Below are positions 6,363 to 38,213 of a DNA stretch of 64,000 bases, piece by piece. Origin of the DNA: Maridesulfovibrio ferrireducens (GTDB lineage Bacteria > Desulfobacterota > Desulfovibrionia > Desulfovibrionales > Desulfovibrionaceae); contig NZ_JAEINN010000007.1 in assembly GCF_016342405.1 (NCBI RefSeq), positions 1-64,000 of the forward strand. The letters are read 5' to 3'. Position numbers and translations under genes: made by a program. Under the pieces are notes generated by a model, which searched no databases, had not been told where the DNA came from, and was given only the letters and a program-made list of their open reading frames with translations. Each line of letters begins with the position of its first letter. Within the stretch, counting starts at the first letter, position 1.

Positions 6363-7529
6363 ATGCTCGATTTTGAACGCAAAAGTGTAGTTATGGTCAC
6401 TTGTCCTAAAGGTTTCTCGCCTTATCTCGCGGAAGAAATTACGAAGATGGGTTTTAAGGTAAGAAACGAATTTTATGCCGGGGTTGAAACCAAGGCATCT
6501 CTTAATGAGTGTATGCGGCTCAACCTGTGGACTCGTTGCGGTCATAGAGTGTTGTACCAGCTTAAGAAATTTAAGGCTGCCACTCCTGATCAGATGTACG
6601 AAGAAGTTAAAGAAATGGAATGGGAAAGAATTCTTTCTCCGGACGATTATCTCACGATTACTTCATCAGTCATTACTGAAACTATTACAGATACACGGTT
6701 TGCCAACGTCAGAGTTAAAGACGCCATTGTTGACAAGGTGCGTGAAAAACTGGGCAGAAGACCTTCTTCCGGTCCCGAAATGACAGGAATTATCGTTTTT
6801 CTCCATTGGAGAGGCGACGACTGTACTATTTATCTTGATACTTCCGGCGTGCCTCTTTCCAAAAGAGGTTATAGGAAGCTTCCTCATAAAGCTCCTTTAC
6901 AAGAAACACTGGCTGCAACTCTGGTTAAAGCTACAGGGTGGACCGGACGCGGAAACTTTATTTCACCTATGTGTGGTAGTGGTACTCTTGCAATTGAGGC
7001 CGCTCTTATTGCTCTTTCCGGTGCTCCAGGACTTATCCGCGACACATACGCTTTCATGAGACTGCCTGGTTACAATGAGGCGTATTGGGATAATTTGTGT
7101 ATGGAGGCTGAAGATAGAGAACGTACTTCATTTGATGGAAAAATTATTGCAACTGATCTTGATCCTGAAGCTGTCGAGGCTGCTCGTAAAAATGCCCGTG
7201 CAGCAGGGGTTGAACATCACATAGAATTTGACGTTTGTGATTTCCGGGATACGGTCATACCGGAAGGTAAGGGCATTATTATTTTTAATCCGGAATACGG
7301 CGAAAGGATGGGTGCTTCTACTCTGCTTGAGAAGATTTATACAGCTATAGGCGATTTTTTGAAAAATAAATGTCAGGGCTATAAAGGCTATGTTTTTACT
7401 GGAAATTCAGATTTAGCCAAATGTATAGGCCTTAGAACTTCCCGCAGACTTCTTTTTTATAATGCTAAAATTGAATGTAGATTGCTCGAATATGAAGTTT
7501 TTGCCGGTAGCGGTAAACGAAAATATTAA
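6363..7529 (+). CDS. THUMP-domain RNA methyltransferase (RlmL N-terminal-like)
   Basis: 388 residues. The N-terminal part (about 1-160) is a ferredoxin-like plus THUMP RNA-binding module; the C-terminal part is a class I SAM methyltransferase with motif I-like FISPMCGSGTLAIEAAL, motif II IIATDLDPEAVEAARKNA and motif IV. The family makes N2-methylguanosine in rRNA (RlmL of E. coli acts on G2445 of 23S rRNA). Motif IV reads NPEYGER where the family normally has NPPYGER, a change at the base-binding loop. A GAGG lies just upstream of the ATG. Class is sure; the exact target base is not. Confidence 0.88.
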   Translation: MLDFERKSVVMVTCPKGFSPYLAEEITKMGFKVRNEFYAGVETKASLNECMRLNLWTRCGHRVLYQLKKFKAATPDQMYEEVKEMEWERILSPDDYLTITSSVITETITDTRFANVRVKDAIVDKVREKLGRRPSSGPEMTGIIVFLHWRGDDCTIYLDTSGVPLSKRGYRKLPHKAPLQETLAATLVKATGWTGRGNFISPMCGSGTLAIEAALIALSGAPGLIRDTYAFMRLPGYNEAYWDNLCMEAEDRERTSFDGKIIATDLDPEAVEAARKNARAAGVEHHIEFDVCDFRDTVIPEGKGIIIFNPEYGERMGASTLLEKIYTAIGDFLKNKCQGYKGYVFTGNSDLAKCIGLRTSRRLLFYNAKIECRLLEYEVFAGSGKRKY

Positions 7530-7546
7530 TTTGATTTTGTTTTCCA

Positions 7547-7595
7547 GTATGCTACTTAGATATTTACTTGTTGAACGGATATCTAAGTAGCATAC
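7547..7595. repeat. Perfect 17-bp inverted repeat upstream of response regulator
   Basis: GTATGCTACTTAGATAT (7547-7563) and its exact reverse complement (7579-7595) are separated by 15 bases. There is no T-run after it, so it is a poor intrinsic terminator. It ends 12 bases before the AAGGAG ribosome binding site of the next gene, so it may be an mRNA hairpin or a protein-binding operator. Confidence 0.8.
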
Positions 7596-7620
7596 AATAT
7601 AATTGTTAAGGAGTTTGGTT

Positions 7621-7989
7621 ATGCCTCGGATTCTCGTCGTTGATGATGATCCCATATCTCGTCAAATTCTTCGTGCAATGCTGGAGAAAGAAGGTCATGT
7701 TGTTTCGGAAGCAGAAGATGGCGTAAAAGCTCTTAATAATTACGATAAAAGCTCTATTGATCTTGTTATAACTGATATTTTTATGCCTGAAAAAGAAGGT
7801 GTGCAAACTGTAAGGGAACTTATCAAAGAAAACCCTGATGTTAAGATTATTGCAGTTTCAGGCGGAAGTTCTTCAGCAAATTATGATTCTTTGGATTGGA
7901 TTAAGATGTTTGGTGTGAAGTATACCTTCACCAAACCGTTTGATTCAAAAGCAATTATATCGGCGATAGATGAATTGCTCACTGAATAA
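7621..7989 (+). CDS. CheY-like single-domain response regulator
   Basis: 122 residues from the ATG at 7621, chosen for its AAGGAG site eight bases upstream; a start 18 bases earlier lacks one. It consists of one receiver domain: acidic pocket VVDDDP (8-11), phospho-acceptor Asp52 (LVITDIFMPE), conserved Ser (AVSGG) and Lys (FTKPF). No output domain. Such proteins pass phosphate from a histidine kinase to another protein by contact. No kinase or chemotaxis gene is nearby, so the partner cannot be named. A strong inverted repeat sits in its leader. Confidence 0.92.
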   Translation: MPRILVVDDDPISRQILRAMLEKEGHVVSEAEDGVKALNNYDKSSIDLVITDIFMPEKEGVQTVRELIKENPDVKIIAVSGGSSSANYDSLDWIKMFGVKYTFTKPFDSKAIISAIDELLTE

Positions 7990-8083
7990 TAATTCTGCAC
8001 TAAATCTTATTAAAGCATTCAGTTGCATATTATTTAAACCTGCCGTATTTCTTCCTGACAAATCTTAGAAGAGTAGTATCTAA

Positions 8084-9067
8084 ATGTCTGAACAAGAAAA
8101 AATACGGGTAAAATTGGAATTCGATGATGTTGGGTTATCGAGTACACTTTTTGGTGCTCAGAATTCAAATCTTGATGCAATTTCAAAACTTTCGGGCGTG
8201 CAGATTAATAGCAGGGGCAATTCGTTACATCTGATTGCGGACAGCCATGAGCTTATTGATCCAGTCGCGAAGTCTTTCAGTCAACTTTATTCAGTCCTTA
8301 AGTCCGGAAAGAAAGTTTTTCCGGAAGACGTGGAAGCTGCGTATAAAATTATATGCCGTAATCCCGCCGCGGACCTTGTAAAAATTTTCAGAGACGAACT
8401 GTTTTCAGTTTCTTCTAAAAAAACAATTTCTCCTCGCACACTTACTCAACGTGCTTATTTTTCTGCTATTCGCGAAAATGATATGGTTTTTTCCATTGGT
8501 CCGGCCGGTACTGGAAAGACATATCTTGCTGTTGCAATGGCTGTTTATGCCTATACTCGTAAAGAAGTTAAAAAGATTATTCTGACTAGGCCGGCTGTTG
8601 AAGCTGGAGAAAAGCTTGGCTTTCTGCCCGGTGATCTGGTGGATAAGGTCAATCCTTATATGCGTCCGCTTTATGATGCTCTTTATGATATGCTGGATTA
8701 TGCAAAAGTTCAGGATATGATTGAAGAAAATATCATTGAAATAGCTCCTTTAGCCTTTATGCGCGGTAGAACGCTGAGTAACGCATTCGTTATTCTTGAT
8801 GAAGCGCAGAACACCACTCCTGAACAGATGAAAATGTTTATTACCCGTCTTGGATTCGGTTCCAAGGCCGTTATTACCGGTGATATTACTCAAGTTGATT
8901 TGCCGGGAAATATTTCATCGGGTTTGGTTGTTGCCCGCAATATTCTCAAAAATGTTGAAGGGATCAGTTTTGTGAAATTTGAAGACACGGATGTTGTCAG
9001 GCATCCTCTTGTTTCAAAAATAGTAAAAGCCTATGATTCTTATGAATGCAGTGGCGGCAAAATATGA
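8084..9067 (+). CDS. phoH: PhoH-family ATPase
   Basis: 327 residues. A short N-terminal KH-like region is followed by the PhoH P-loop domain: Walker A GPAGTGKT (139-146), then LTRPAVEAGEKLGFLPGDL, Walker B FVILDEAQNT and GDITQVDLP, all diagnostic of PhoH/PhoL. PhoL is a cytoplasmic ATPase linked to RNA metabolism. Its gene commonly lies next to ybeY, as here, where the stop overlaps the ybeY start (ATGA). This coupling supports a shared role in rRNA maturation. Confidence 0.95.
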   Translation: MSEQEKIRVKLEFDDVGLSSTLFGAQNSNLDAISKLSGVQINSRGNSLHLIADSHELIDPVAKSFSQLYSVLKSGKKVFPEDVEAAYKIICRNPAADLVKIFRDELFSVSSKKTISPRTLTQRAYFSAIRENDMVFSIGPAGTGKTYLAVAMAVYAYTRKEVKKIILTRPAVEAGEKLGFLPGDLVDKVNPYMRPLYDALYDMLDYAKVQDMIEENIIEIAPLAFMRGRTLSNAFVILDEAQNTTPEQMKMFITRLGFGSKAVITGDITQVDLPGNISSGLVVARNILKNVEGISFVKFEDTDVVRHPLVSKIVKAYDSYECSGGKI

Positions 9068-32631: not shown

Positions 32632-33408
32632 ATGGCAGCTTTTAAAGATTTATCAAATGCACTGGCAGATGAAGTCTTAAACGACATGGCAGATAACTTT
32701 TTCGGGGCAAGAAAAGATATCGATGATGCCATTGAGTATTTTGAATCTTTGTCAAAACAGCTTTTTGAAAATGTGGATGAGATTTTTGAATCATGTGCTT
32801 TGCTTCAAAAAGTCTGTCTTGGTGAAGCTGGATATAAAGAGTTTTGGAATTTAGCCGGAATTAATCCTGAGTTTTATAATTTTCCTGAGCAGACAGAATG
32901 TTCTTCTTTTGATGACACACCTTCATTTTCACTGACAAATAAAAGTAAATATAATAAGTGGGTAAGCATTGCATATCATCAGCTTGCCCGTCGTATAGAA
33001 GCTTATATGAACGGATTAATTACTGATAATGAAGCGAATCACGGTCGTAAAATGAGATCCTTAAACCGCATGGATTTTTATCTTTTTGCTGAGGATATTA
33101 ATCGTAAAATCGATAAGGTTAATAAAAATATATCACCTTCTGATGTACTTAAGTTTACAAAATCACTTGATCCGGAAACAGTAGTAAAAGAAAATATCAC
33201 CGGATGTGTGGGGCCGGATTGTTCCGCCATAGACAGTCAAATGGCTTTTAAGCCTATTGTGATTGAAGAGCTGGGTTTACCGGAGTTTCCTGATTTACCT
33301 GACGGTAAACACACACCTCCTTTTATTCAGGATTTTTGTTCACAAATGTATTCAAAGAATAAGTCGCAAGTGAAAGAATTGTTAGAGCAATTACAAAAAA
33401 GCATTTAA
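32632..33408 (+). CDS. Unknown cytoplasmic helical protein
   Basis: 258 residues with a weak ribosome binding site (AAGGAT). No signal peptide, no membrane helix. Predicted to be mostly helical with several cysteines (SCALLQKVCLGEAG, TGCVGPDCSAID), which do not form a recognised metal motif. I do not recognise the family. It is followed after 15 bases by an exported protein gene, so the two probably form an operon. Function unknown. Confidence 0.6.
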   Translation: MAAFKDLSNALADEVLNDMADNFFGARKDIDDAIEYFESLSKQLFENVDEIFESCALLQKVCLGEAGYKEFWNLAGINPEFYNFPEQTECSSFDDTPSFSLTNKSKYNKWVSIAYHQLARRIEAYMNGLITDNEANHGRKMRSLNRMDFYLFAEDINRKIDKVNKNISPSDVLKFTKSLDPETVVKENITGCVGPDCSAIDSQMAFKPIVIEELGLPEFPDLPDGKHTPPFIQDFCSQMYSKNKSQVKELLEQLQKSI

Positions 33409-33423
33409 TTCAGGAGATTTCAG

Positions 33424-33918
33424 ATGAAAAAAGTATTTATTCTATTTGTTTTCGCTCTGGCGATATCTTGCTTGTCCCTATCCGCTTTTGCAGAGTCTGA
33501 AATGGCTGTTCCTGATGTTAAATCAAAGCCGATAACTGTAAGTGATAAGGCTGAAAATCTTAATAAAAAAGAAGGTGTTGCTGTAATAGTAGAGCATTCT
33601 GGAGATGATGAAGTTGGTGGTACTCTGGCTTTAAAGTTAAAGGAAAACTTTAGGAAATCAATGTTGTTCCGATTAGCTGATAAAAAGCAAAAATCAGTAA
33701 GAATTAAAGTTGTTTCAAGTAGTGAATTTAGTGAACGTCCTGAAATAGGTTCGATTTATGCTGTGATCTGGACATTTGCAGCGAGTGAAGATGTCGTTCC
33801 ATTTTATCTTGATAAACGCATAGGCACTGTGAATGCTTTAAACGTTGAAACTACTGCGGCTAAATTAATGAACACAACTGATAAAATTGCGACTCAATAT
33901 AAATTTCTATTTGAATAG
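33424..33918 (+). CDS. Small exported protein of unknown function
   Basis: 164 residues with a signal peptide (about 1-23, ISCLSLSAFAES). AGGAG precedes the ATG. The mature part has a pattern like a periplasmic domain that resembles GNA1162/LPP20-type proteins (VAVIVEHSGDDEVGGTLALKLKE, then FRLADKKQKSVRIKVVS), but I cannot assign it. It is the second gene of a two-gene operon with the helical protein at 32632, and ends 13 bases before a convergent gene. Confidence 0.6.
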   Translation: MKKVFILFVFALAISCLSLSAFAESEMAVPDVKSKPITVSDKAENLNKKEGVAVIVEHSGDDEVGGTLALKLKENFRKSMLFRLADKKQKSVRIKVVSSSEFSERPEIGSIYAVIWTFAASEDVVPFYLDKRIGTVNALNVETTAAKLMNTTDKIATQYKFLFE

Positions 33919-35163: not shown

Positions 35164-35853
35164 ATGAAAAACAAAATATTAATATTCATATTGTTGTTGG
35201 CAGGAGTTTTTCTCTTTTTTGCCTTTGATTTTGATAGGTTCTTAACCTTGGATTATTTGAAAAGTTCAAGGCAGGAATTTCAATCTTTTTATGAGCTGTA
35301 TCCATTCGGTTCAATCTTTAGTTTTTTTGTTATTTACGTTGTCATTGTAGGGCTTAATTTGCCGGGGGCCGCCGTACTTGGTCTTGCCGGAGGAGCCCTT
35401 TTCGGTTTTACCGTTGGCGTGGTTACCATCTCTTTTGCCAGCTCTATAGGGGCGACAATTGCCTGTTTTTTTTCGCGCTATTTATTTCGGGACTATGTTC
35501 AGCGTAGGTTTGGAGATAAGCTGGAAAAAGTCAACAACGGAATAAAAAACGAAGGAGCATTCTATCTATTCACAATGCGCCTTATTCCGGCTATTCCTTT
35601 TGTTGTAATTAATCTCGTGATGGGACTTACTCCCATGAGACTCCGGACTTTTTATTGGGTCTCTCAGATCGGAATGCTGCCCGGAACAATGGTTTTTGTG
35701 AACGCCGGAAAGGAGCTTGGTAAAATTTCGTCTGTATCCGGTATTCTTCAACCTAGTTTAATAATTTCTTTTATTATATTAGGTCTGTTTCCACTTTTTG
35801 TCAGAAAAGCAGTTAGTTTCGCAAAAGAACGAAGTATTAATAAAATAACTTAA
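35164..35853 (+). CDS. TVP38/TMEM64 (VTT domain) membrane protein
   Basis: 229 residues from the ATG at 35164; codons before it are shadow of the opposite gene. Five to six hydrophobic segments. The VTT/SNARE-associated motif is visible: GLNLPGAAVLGLAGGALFG, then ASSIGATIACFFSRY and FTMRLIPAIPFVVINLVMG. Bacterial members (YdjX/YdjZ-like, DedA relatives) are integral inner-membrane proteins thought to move lipids. The gene is 25 bases upstream of the two CNBD proteins, in the same direction. Confidence 0.85.
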   Translation: MKNKILIFILLLAGVFLFFAFDFDRFLTLDYLKSSRQEFQSFYELYPFGSIFSFFVIYVVIVGLNLPGAAVLGLAGGALFGFTVGVVTISFASSIGATIACFFSRYLFRDYVQRRFGDKLEKVNNGIKNEGAFYLFTMRLIPAIPFVVINLVMGLTPMRLRTFYWVSQIGMLPGTMVFVNAGKELGKISSVSGILQPSLIISFIILGLFPLFVRKAVSFAKERSINKIT

Positions 35854-35878: not shown

Positions 35879-37075
35879 ATGGCTAGATCTCCCTTAACGT
35901 CTATAACGACAAAGACGTCTCCTACTATCCGGAATTATCATAAAGGTAAGGTTATTTTCCATGAAGGACAGGAAAGTAAAGTTGCTTATATGATTAAATC
36001 CGGTTCAGTTAATGTTTTTAAAAATATTGATAATAAAAAAACAGTATTAATGACTCTTCATCGTGGTGATATTTTTGGAGAAATGTCATTGCTTGCGAAC
36101 GAAAAACGTTCTGTAAGTGTTGAGGCTGCAAGCTATTGTGAATTAGTTCCTTTGACTGAGGATATCATGAATAGGCTGCTTGATGCCTCTCCTGTAACTA
36201 TTAAAAAAATAGTTGAATTGCTTGCTGAGCGGGTTTTACGTGTAGATAATGAAGCTGTTACTGTTGCCGAAGGTGGGCCGTTTCTTTCATTGGCTACAAT
36301 ATTAGACCTTGCTTACAAGGATTATGCGTATATTCCGCGAGATAAGAAGCGCGAAATAGAAAATTATGAGATGGGTCTTTCAGTAAAGTCTTTTACGGAA
36401 ACAGTGAAAAGTCTCGCTGTGTTTTCTACAATAGAAATTGATTCTTTTCTCCATACAATTTTTAAATTTAGACTGATTGATATTAAATCGAAGCAAAGGA
36501 GCGGTAAAAGTGCTTTTGTTGAAAGATATATCAAGATACCAGATTTTAATGAATTTATGTCATCTTTAAGAAAATTGTATTCAGAGGTCAAAGAGCTTGG
36601 GGCTGATGTTGAATACAAGATGAATTTTATGACTTTTTCCGATCTTGCAGTCCGAACAGGAAGTCGACCTGAATTTATTTATAACAAAGTTATGAAAGAA
36701 GAGTTCCCTGAAAATTTATTGTTTTTTAATAGAGCAAAAGCAATAAACTGGAGTAAGGATAAAGAACCTGATTTTTTTAAAAAATTTAAACGGCCTAAAA
36801 AATCCTTGAATGAAATTGATAATGTTGATGATTTTGTTTTTATTGATAATCCTACGTTACAAATAGCGTTGAAAGATTTTAATTATTATAAAATATCTGT
36901 TCTTTATTCTGCTGCCGATGAACAAAATAAAAAGAAAATTGTGCTGAATATAAATAGAAAACAAGCTGGAATTCTTCAGTCTGAACCGCCTGCCGCTCGT
37001 GATGTAAGCGATTTAGAGGTTCTGGAGTGTTCAGATGAAGTGATAGATATTATTAAAAAATTAAAAGGGTTATAG
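35879..37075 (+). CDS. Cyclic-nucleotide-binding-domain protein with FliG-C-like C-terminus
   Basis: 398 residues. Residues about 20-140 are a CNBD/CRP-type beta-roll: GKVIFHEGQESKVAYMIKSG, MTLHRGDIFGEMSLL and RSVSVEA, with the phosphate-binding cassette (GEMSLLANEKRSVSVEA). No CRP-type helix-turn-helix follows. Residues about 316-398 (VDDFVFIDNPTLQIALKDF, KISVLYSAADEQNKKKI, then VIDIIKKL) align by eye with the charged-helix end of the flagellar rotor protein FliG (VDDRSIQRLL..., ALKGA...). The downstream gene is a paralogue. Ligand (c-di-GMP, cAMP or other) cannot be told. It may couple a nucleotide signal to a FliG-like interaction surface. Confidence 0.75.
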   Translation: MARSPLTSITTKTSPTIRNYHKGKVIFHEGQESKVAYMIKSGSVNVFKNIDNKKTVLMTLHRGDIFGEMSLLANEKRSVSVEAASYCELVPLTEDIMNRLLDASPVTIKKIVELLAERVLRVDNEAVTVAEGGPFLSLATILDLAYKDYAYIPRDKKREIENYEMGLSVKSFTETVKSLAVFSTIEIDSFLHTIFKFRLIDIKSKQRSGKSAFVERYIKIPDFNEFMSSLRKLYSEVKELGADVEYKMNFMTFSDLAVRTGSRPEFIYNKVMKEEFPENLLFFNRAKAINWSKDKEPDFFKKFKRPKKSLNEIDNVDDFVFIDNPTLQIALKDFNYYKISVLYSAADEQNKKKIVLNINRKQAGILQSEPPAARDVSDLEVLECSDEVIDIIKKLKGL

Positions 37076-37076
37076 A

Positions 37077-38213
37077 GTGAGTTCTTTAAAACCTAAAACG
37101 ATAACTTTTTCAAAGGGTGATGTTATTTTCCGTGAAGGCGACATGGGAAATGTTGCCTATATTATTACCAAGGGTACTGTTAATATTGTTAAACAAATCC
37201 ATGGTGTTAATAATGTTTTAGCAACACTTGGTTCGGGTGAAATTTTTGGAGAAATGGCTATAATATCAAAGAGTCCTCGAGTTGCCGGGGCGGAAGCTGA
37301 AACAAGTTGTACTTTGATGGTTTTAACTGCCAACCTGATTATGACCTTGCTTAAAAAGAGCCATCCAACTGTATTTCATCTCACTCGGGTACTGGCCTCA
37401 AGACTTGCTACCGCTAATAAAAATATAATTGAAAACAGAAGTGGCAATATCTGGATGACCATGTGCCGTCTTCTTGATCTTAAATTTAGAATATTTACGA
37501 ATTCTCCGGAACAAGATAAAGAGGTTGGAGTTAATTATAAAGATTTTTGCTATGAACTTAGCAGCATAATAAATATTTCAGAATCAGAAATAGAAAGGAT
37601 GATTACTGCTGCTTGTTCTTTTAATCTTATAACAAAAAGTAAAATGGTAAGCAGAGTTTATCTTGCTATCAATGATCCTGAACACTTTTTGGAAGTGACA
37701 GAAAGTTTGTCTAATGATGTTAATAAGTTCAGAGGGAAGATCTGTTACACCGAATACGTTGATATTCATGACTTTTCTAAGCTGTTCGATTCTCTTCCAG
37801 ATCTGATTTATAAAAAAATAGGTGTTGGTGATTTTCCTGAAGATATTTGTGTCTTACACAAAGGCGCAACATACAAATGGGCTAAAAAGAAAGGAGATGA
37901 ATATTTTCTGGAAACCAAACGTAAACGTAAGTCCATTGAAGAGTTAGAAAATGTTAATGATATCGTTTTTGTTGATATTGGAACTTTAAAGCAAATTTTC
38001 AGCAGGCTTGGTTATTATAAGCTGGGTATATTATTGGCAATTGCCGCAGAAGAAGGCAGAGACCGGATATTAGCAGCGATTTCTTCAAAGATTGCAAACG
38101 CTATTACTAAAGAATCAAAAGGTTTAGACGCTATTGATCAGAACGAAGCTGATGAAGTGGAAGAAGAATTACTTGATATGATCAGAGAAGTTAAATTAGG
38201 TAAAAAGGAATAG
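37077..38213 (+). CDS. Second cyclic-nucleotide-binding-domain protein with FliG-C-like C-terminus
   Basis: 378 residues from a GTG start one base after the stop of its paralogue. CNBD at about 10-125 (GDVIFREGDMGNVAYIITKG, GSGEIFGEMAIISKSPRVAG). Residues about 293-378 (VNDIVFVDIGTLKQIFSRL, KLGILLAIAAEEGRDRIL, then EVEEELLDMIREV) show the same FliG-C-like order as the upstream protein. The two proteins are clearly homologous across their length, with the same domain order, so they arose by tandem duplication. They may work as a heteromer. No flagellar gene is nearby. A weak middle region (about 215-290) is shared but unassigned. Confidence 0.75.
   Translation: MSSLKPKTITFSKGDVIFREGDMGNVAYIITKGTVNIVKQIHGVNNVLATLGSGEIFGEMAIISKSPRVAGAEAETSCTLMVLTANLIMTLLKKSHPTVFHLTRVLASRLATANKNIIENRSGNIWMTMCRLLDLKFRIFTNSPEQDKEVGVNYKDFCYELSSIINISESEIERMITAACSFNLITKSKMVSRVYLAINDPEHFLEVTESLSNDVNKFRGKICYTEYVDIHDFSKLFDSLPDLIYKKIGVGDFPEDICVLHKGATYKWAKKKGDEYFLETKRKRKSIEELENVNDIVFVDIGTLKQIFSRLGYYKLGILLAIAAEEGRDRILAAISSKIANAITKESKGLDAIDQNEADEVEEELLDMIREVKLGKKE

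Follow-up and report, generated by a model that had tools for sequence, protein, structure and literature searches.

A family of cyclic nucleotide-binding proteins with a FliG_C-like domain, linked to motAB genes and possibly acting as rotor mimics

Introduction

What is the role of a FliG-like domain at the end of a cyclic nucleotide-binding protein? This question is raised by two adjacent genes of Maridesulfovibrio ferrireducens (contig NZ_JAEINN010000007.1), located in a stretch of 64,000 nucleotides that was analysed as a whole and is referred to as the window. An earlier note on this DNA described both products as proteins with a cyclic nucleotide-binding domain (CNBD) and an end resembling the C-terminal domain of FliG (FliG_C), and proposed either that a nucleotide sensor imitates or contacts the rotor switch, or that a FliG-like domain serves a purpose outside flagella. 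In Salmonella, FliG residues D289 and R281 interact with MotA R90 and E98, R90 being described as more important for stator positioning (PMC7564593), and in a cryo-EM complex the conserved charges at the ends of the torque helix contact adjacent MotAs (PMC11302681).

Results

Organization and conservation of the gene pair

Both reading frames of the pair are open from end to end and a single base separates them (37075/37077), in agreement with the earlier description of two genes coupled by a one-base gap. The coordinates of their domains are presented in Table 1. The VTT/DedA-like gene located 25 bases upstream of gene 1 is found as the same neighbour in loci L196 and L197, and it is possibly co-transcribed with gene 1. 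Two adjacent ORFs without Pfam match (258 and 164 aa, window positions 32632-33918) are also located upstream of the pair and kept in both loci.

Table 1. Coordinates of the gene pair, its domains and its upstream neighbour in the window, and of standalone FliG-end proteins in other sequences
Feature	Position	Strand	Remarks and evidence
VTT/DedA-like membrane protein	35164..35853	+	Upstream of gene 1
Gene 1	35879..37075	+	398 aa; CNBD, degenerate CRP-type winged helix, helical linker, FliG_C-like domain
Gene 1 CNBD	35930..36184	+	Residues 18-102; cassette FGEM...RS; Pfam PF00027 (E 6.7e-20) and alignment
Gene 1 FliG_C-like domain	36824..37066	+	Residues 316-396; Pfam PF01706, own-genome search, FliG alignment
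Gene 1 torque-helix counterparts	K361 (Ec R281), E369 (Ec D289)		Alignment with FliG
Gene 2	37077..38213	+	378 aa, GTG start; architecture as gene 1
Gene 2 CNBD	37104..37358	+	Residues 10-94; cassette G58 E59 ... R68; Pfam PF00027 (E 7.9e-20)
Gene 2 long helix	37365..37433	+	Residues 97-119; at the place of the CRP dimerisation helix; AlphaFold2 model
Gene 2 degenerate CRP-type winged helix	37449..37670	+	Residues 125-198; model and Foldseek match to CRP
Gene 2 helical linker	37686..37931	+	Residues 204-285; low-confidence model; well conserved family-wide in the alignment
Gene 2 FliG_C-like domain	37938..38192	+	Residues 288-372; Pfam PF01706 (E 1.2e-7), PDB profile matches, fold Z 12.3-10.9
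Gene 2 torque-helix counterparts	K338 (Ec R281), E346 (Ec D289)		Alignment with FliG
Standalone FliG-end protein	L190:4135-4644	-	
Standalone FliG-end protein	L189:4393-4923	-	
Standalone FliG-end protein	L192:3572-4897	+	
Standalone FliG-end protein	G090:C2:18483-18866		

The two proteins are paralogues with 28% identity. In the phylogenetic tree they form two long, well-supported branches (stems of 1.13-1.24 changes per column); holding the pair together gave an AU p of 0.41, and origin from each other or separately from a motAB-linked copy are both allowed, so that a direct tandem origin is neither shown nor rejected. Both genes were found in the five sampled genomes of the genus, with unchanged neighbours where these were read (L196 and L197). 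The window copies are under purifying selection, with dN/dS of about 0.06-0.12 where dS is unsaturated (dN 0.08-0.10 and dS 1.1-1.3 in the comparison with L018), and they retain the sensor and the charges at positions 281 and 289 of FliG.

The cyclic nucleotide sensor and the CRP-like module

The CNBD at the start of both proteins was confirmed with the Pfam family cNMP_binding (PF00027), at 71 bits for a cut-off of 27.5. Its phosphate-binding cassette is intact in the 32 aligned relatives (G58 in 32/32, E59 in 32/32 and R68 in 30/32, protein 2 numbering), and the closest solved CNBD to the protein 2 model is that of Bd1971, with cAMP- or cGMP-bound structures (Z about 17, 36-37% identity). 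No PilZ match was obtained in either window protein with Pfam at E-values up to 10. Three class III cyclase genes are present in the own genome and, in contig L052, a dCache-HAMP class III cyclase gene is located immediately upstream of the CNBD-FliG_C gene. The ligand is presumably cAMP or cGMP.

According to the earlier note, the CRP helix-turn-helix was lacking. This has to be corrected, because a CRP-type winged helix, though degenerate, is present in the full-length AlphaFold2 model of protein 2 (pLDDT 73.9; residues 125-198), in which CNBD, long helix and winged helix follow each other as in a CRP-like module, and CRP structures align to this model across about 205-212 columns with Foldseek. 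The models are monomers obtained from shallow alignments, with low confidence in the linker (residues 204-285), and dimerisation may take place through the CRP-type helix. No HTH family was found among the 25 Pfam matches listed for the 32 members. The recognition-like helix is acidic in the family alignment (mean net charge -0.9), E171 being found in 31/32 members and D/E173 in all 32, and DNA binding has therefore probably been lost.

Homology and fold of the FliG_C-like domain

The FliG_C likeness of the last ~85 residues, as proposed earlier, was borne out by Pfam matches in both proteins and by the fold of the protein 2 model. FliG_C (cut-off 23.3 bits) matched protein 2 with 32.4 bits (E 1.2e-7), whole protein 1 with 21.6 bits, just under the cut-off (E 2.7e-4), and the C-terminal piece of protein 1 alone with 25.0 bits (E 2.4e-5); all 32 aligned relatives matched both cNMP_binding and FliG_C. 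A profile search was required because phmmer with a single sequence gave weak matches to FliG in the PDB (E 0.3-0.4). When a family profile made from the last 160 residues, without any FliG sequence, was used to search the PDB, FliG was the sole family at E < 0.01 (best E-value 8.3e-11). In a phylum sample of 395 genomes, the same profile matched 197 of them with E-values of 1e-5 or lower, nearly all matches covering the FliG_C part of frames as long as FliG (about 330-350 aa), which are read as the fliG gene itself. Since a profile free of FliG retrieves FliG from both the PDB and the phylum genomes, the homology is beyond chance, and a fortuitous helical similarity was ruled out by this PDB match together with the fold ranking.

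The C-terminal half of protein 2 (residues 222-378) was modelled alone because CNBD and CRP structures fill the fold list of the full-length model. The model (mean pLDDT 64.6, about 70-85 over the FliG_C-like domain) recovers the FliG fold: rows 1-19 of the VIA-align matches were all FliG (Z 12.3-7.4), the next family appearing at Z 3.9, and among them is the MotAB-bound FliG of 8ucs, superposed with Z 11.3 and 2.1 A across 84 residues. The FliG counterpart is limited to residues about 237-321, which comprise the torque domain but neither the N-terminal domain nor the middle one. Accordingly, only these positions matched the full-length FliG model TIGR00207, with 12-17 bits for a threshold of 226.7, and neither FliG_N nor FliG_M was matched by Pfam upstream of the FliG_C stretch in either protein. 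The segments previously taken as the torque helix (316-333 in protein 1 and 293-310 in protein 2) correspond to the first FliG_C helices, the true counterparts being K361-E369 and K338-E346, respectively.

Other FliG_C-like sequences were observed in the course of the analysis. The own genome encodes a 276-aa protein without CNBD (L004:1450-2280; G000 C13:82836-83069), with a FliG_C-like end above the cut-off (24.8 bits) that carries the helix SERAKDMIREDAK, in a locus (L194) with M50-peptidase/HlyD and HlyD-type secretion proteins. It also encodes a 373-aa protein (L006:703-1824; G000 C6:95890-96162) with a weak match near the N-terminus, below the cut-off (18.1 bits), whose gene adjoins a glutamine-synthetase-like gene. 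Standalone FliG-end proteins of about 170-200 aa, or in longer frames, covering FliG residues about 198-336, are present in four genomes away from motAB (Table 1). The standalone FliG C-terminal ORFs of G023, G024 and G037 were rejected as relatives, with no CNBD in frame and no motAB neighbour.

Linkage to motAB and co-occurrence with FliG

The absence of nearby flagellar genes stated by the earlier note holds for the 34 window genes scanned, but a third paralogue of 388 aa, located elsewhere in the same genome (contig C6), heads an operon with motA and motB. The last four bases of this paralogue are shared with the beginning of motA, motB is the next gene, and the MotB protein carries a plug of the ordinary type together with an OmpA domain for binding peptidoglycan. 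Lack of any flagellar link for the family as a whole is ruled out by this type of operon.

Full-length members were found in 32 of the 99 sampled genomes of the bacterial family, so the fusion sought in other genomes does exist. All 32 carriers have FliG, and linkage to motAB was observed in 31 of them, with the gene immediately 5' of a distinctive motA, giving a positive answer to the question of co-occurrence with flagellar genes. Outside the genus, motA is located directly downstream and on the same strand in the 25 full-length loci retrieved, with motB after it in nearly all of them, within the short locus retrieved. The gene motA is also directly 3' of the CNBD-FliG_C gene in G031 and in seven named contigs that include Desulfovibrio, Pseudodesulfovibrio and a Poribacteria MAG. 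When the linked-type MotA was searched in the 99 genomes with a threshold of E 1e-60, it was present in 31/32 carriers vs 0/67 non-carriers (Fisher p 7e-25), and no family member was found in the 13 FliG-less genomes of the 99 (0/13; Fisher p 0.008), both p values being descriptive only because related genomes are not independent. The carrier without linked-type MotA (G014) has a divergent family copy, away from motAB.

Some loci depart from the common arrangement. Two CNBD-FliG_C genes flank motA-motB in G023, one on each side (L187:3139-5169 and 7112-8347). The Candidatus Poribacteria MAG shows the same three-gene operon (L053:6010-8812; FliG_C E 1.4e-12), with Lys at the E98 position of its MotA, and this operon could be either a horizontal transfer or a mis-binned contig. 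A Nitrospirales MAG (L054:5965-6849) encodes a protein that has the family's CNBD and middle region but lacks the FliG_C domain.

Charges at the putative docking surface

In the alignment with FliG, the counterpart of residue 281 is Lys in 30/32 family members and that of 289 is Glu/Asp in 31/32. Of two other FliG residues linked to torque, K264 has become A/S and R297 has become D in the family, and the D288 counterpart is lost in both window proteins. The partner MotA is altered as well: R90 is present in 0/36 linked MotAs, with a basic residue (Lys/Arg) at 92 in 32/36 and E98 in 35/36, while R90 is found in all 33 unlinked MotAs of this bacterial family, position 92 being acidic in 30/33 of them and E98 kept in 32/33. 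This charge pattern fits a stator whose surface towards FliG has been altered and which is accompanied by a FliG_C protein of its own. As R90, the partner of FliG D289, has been lost from the linked MotA, the canonical docking geometry may not apply.

Discussion

Concerning the two proposals of the earlier note, a non-flagellar use of the FliG-like domain is disfavoured by the presence of FliG in each of the 32 carriers and by the stator genes next to the family members; for the window pair itself this is a possible use, if a disfavoured one. The proposed nucleotide sensor imitating or contacting the rotor switch finds strong support in its parts, from the intact cassette, the homology and fold of FliG_C, the motAB linkage in 31/32 genomes and the MotA-contact charges, whereas its function, ligand and binding are putative.

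The reading to which slightly better than even chances are given is that the family consists of cAMP/cGMP-responsive, CRP-derived rotor mimics that dock as clutch, brake or gate on a stator dedicated to them, with the window pair as relocated, conserved paralogues. The protein would be cytosolic, with a cyclic mononucleotide sensor that carries a FliG torque domain, and its commonest form is encoded at the head of an operon that also specifies a MotA and a MotB of its own. Most likely, the FliG_C-like domain would dock in the pincer between neighbouring MotA cytoplasmic loops of the dedicated stator, at the site where the rotor FliG would otherwise bind. Binding of cAMP or cGMP would alter the presentation of this domain, and the protein would therefore act as a clutch, brake or gate setting when the dedicated stator engages the rotor. 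The window genes would be two relocated paralogues that retain sensor, fold and docking charges and probably act on the same or another stator. The homology and fold, the operon, the co-occurrence with the distinctive MotA and with FliG, and the charges of both partners are observed; we infer the nature of the ligand, dimerisation, binding to MotA, the sign of the effect on the motor and what the window pair does. The replaced K264 and R297 counterparts count against the rotor-mimic account and, as far as the pair is concerned, so do its location away from motAB and the lost D288.

Indeed, the pair could consist, unlike the motAB-linked form, of repurposed copies without motor function, as its distance from motAB, its long tree stems (1.13-1.24 changes per column) and the absence of flagellar neighbours among the 34 window genes scanned would suggest; this is rather unlikely, since the pair is kept in 5/5 sampled genomes of the genus, with dN far below dS and the K281 and E289 counterparts retained. 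For the family, an adaptor or activator instead of a brake is also unlikely. In such a case the cNMP-bound protein would bridge or position the dedicated stator at the rotor or aid its assembly, which agrees with a gene placed first in the stator operon and with a MotA whose lost R90 may require an adaptor, but no C-ring-binding domain was recognised in the protein.

It is quite unlikely that the family acts as CRP-type transcription factors that detect free stators through FliG_C. Such a factor would be held at the membrane when MotAB is unengaged and would otherwise regulate genes, with the stator as mechanosensor; the intact CNBD and the presence, in the model, of a CRP module whose second domain resembles a winged helix are compatible with it, but the 25 Pfam matches listed for the 32 members include no HTH family, and the acidity of the recognition-like helix, where E171 and D/E173 hardly vary, is unfavourable for DNA. 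Improbable too is a separate ion-driven 5:2 machine that works without turning the flagellum, in which MotAB would be joined by the CNBD-FliG_C protein as a soluble rotor or cargo. In its favour, none of the 36 dedicated MotAs has R90, most of them carrying a shifted basic residue, the protein travels with the linked-type MotA in 31/31 genomes, and FliG_N and FliG_M, required for C-ring entry, were unrecognised before the FliG_C stretch; against it, FliG is present in 32/32 carriers, MotB combines an OmpA peptidoglycan-binding domain with a plug of the ordinary type, and MotA E98 is conserved. Equally doubtful is its more specific form, in which a MotA5MotB2 stator with re-engineered docking charges and the cNMP-gated FliG_C protein would make up a rotary unit of their own, where the signalling protein, and not the C-ring, is gripped and possibly turned.

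The rotor-mimic reading suggests an undescribed way of controlling the bacterial motor with cAMP or cGMP. If true, it would be a new route for these nucleotides to control the motor directly, without new transcription, and also a natural charge-swap experiment on the grip of MotA on FliG, with Arg90 in 0/36 linked-type vs 33/33 other MotAs. No paper on a CNBD-FliG_C family was found in the literature search, which missed most subscription papers, so that this absence is not a proof.

The motor brakes known so far respond to c-di-GMP and attach to the rotor-stator interface from outside, whereas this regulator appears to carry a copy of the stator-binding domain of the rotor itself, wired to a cyclic mononucleotide, and to have an exclusive stator whose FliG-facing charges have changed along with it. 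YcgR is not known to carry a FliG domain; it senses c-di-GMP by PilZ, in contrast to a family that has a CNBD for mononucleotides, itself carries a rotor domain and is encoded with a dedicated stator. The likeness to YcgR and the PilZ flagellar brakes, and to MotL, is that of a proposed soluble regulator controlled by a second messenger at the MotA/FliG interface (PMC10140304, PMC12713396, PMC8203827). The CRP/FNR regulators share the CNBD, the long helix and the winged helix in the order of the model, over about 205-212 Foldseek columns, but the recognition-like helix of the family is acidic and an additional C-terminal half with FliG_C is present. Bd1971 from Bdellovibrio, the best structural match of the CNBD, is also an example of a CNBD controlling an output that does not bind DNA, an EAL phosphodiesterase instead of FliG_C. 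Finally, the FliG torque domain (PF01706; PDB 1qc7, 3ajc and 8ucs) is homologous in sequence and fold, with basic 281 and acidic 289, but the family lacks FliG_N, FliG_M and the MFxF/ARM-C part, has K264 and R297 replaced, is about 15% identical over the domain and is fused to a cyclic nucleotide sensor.
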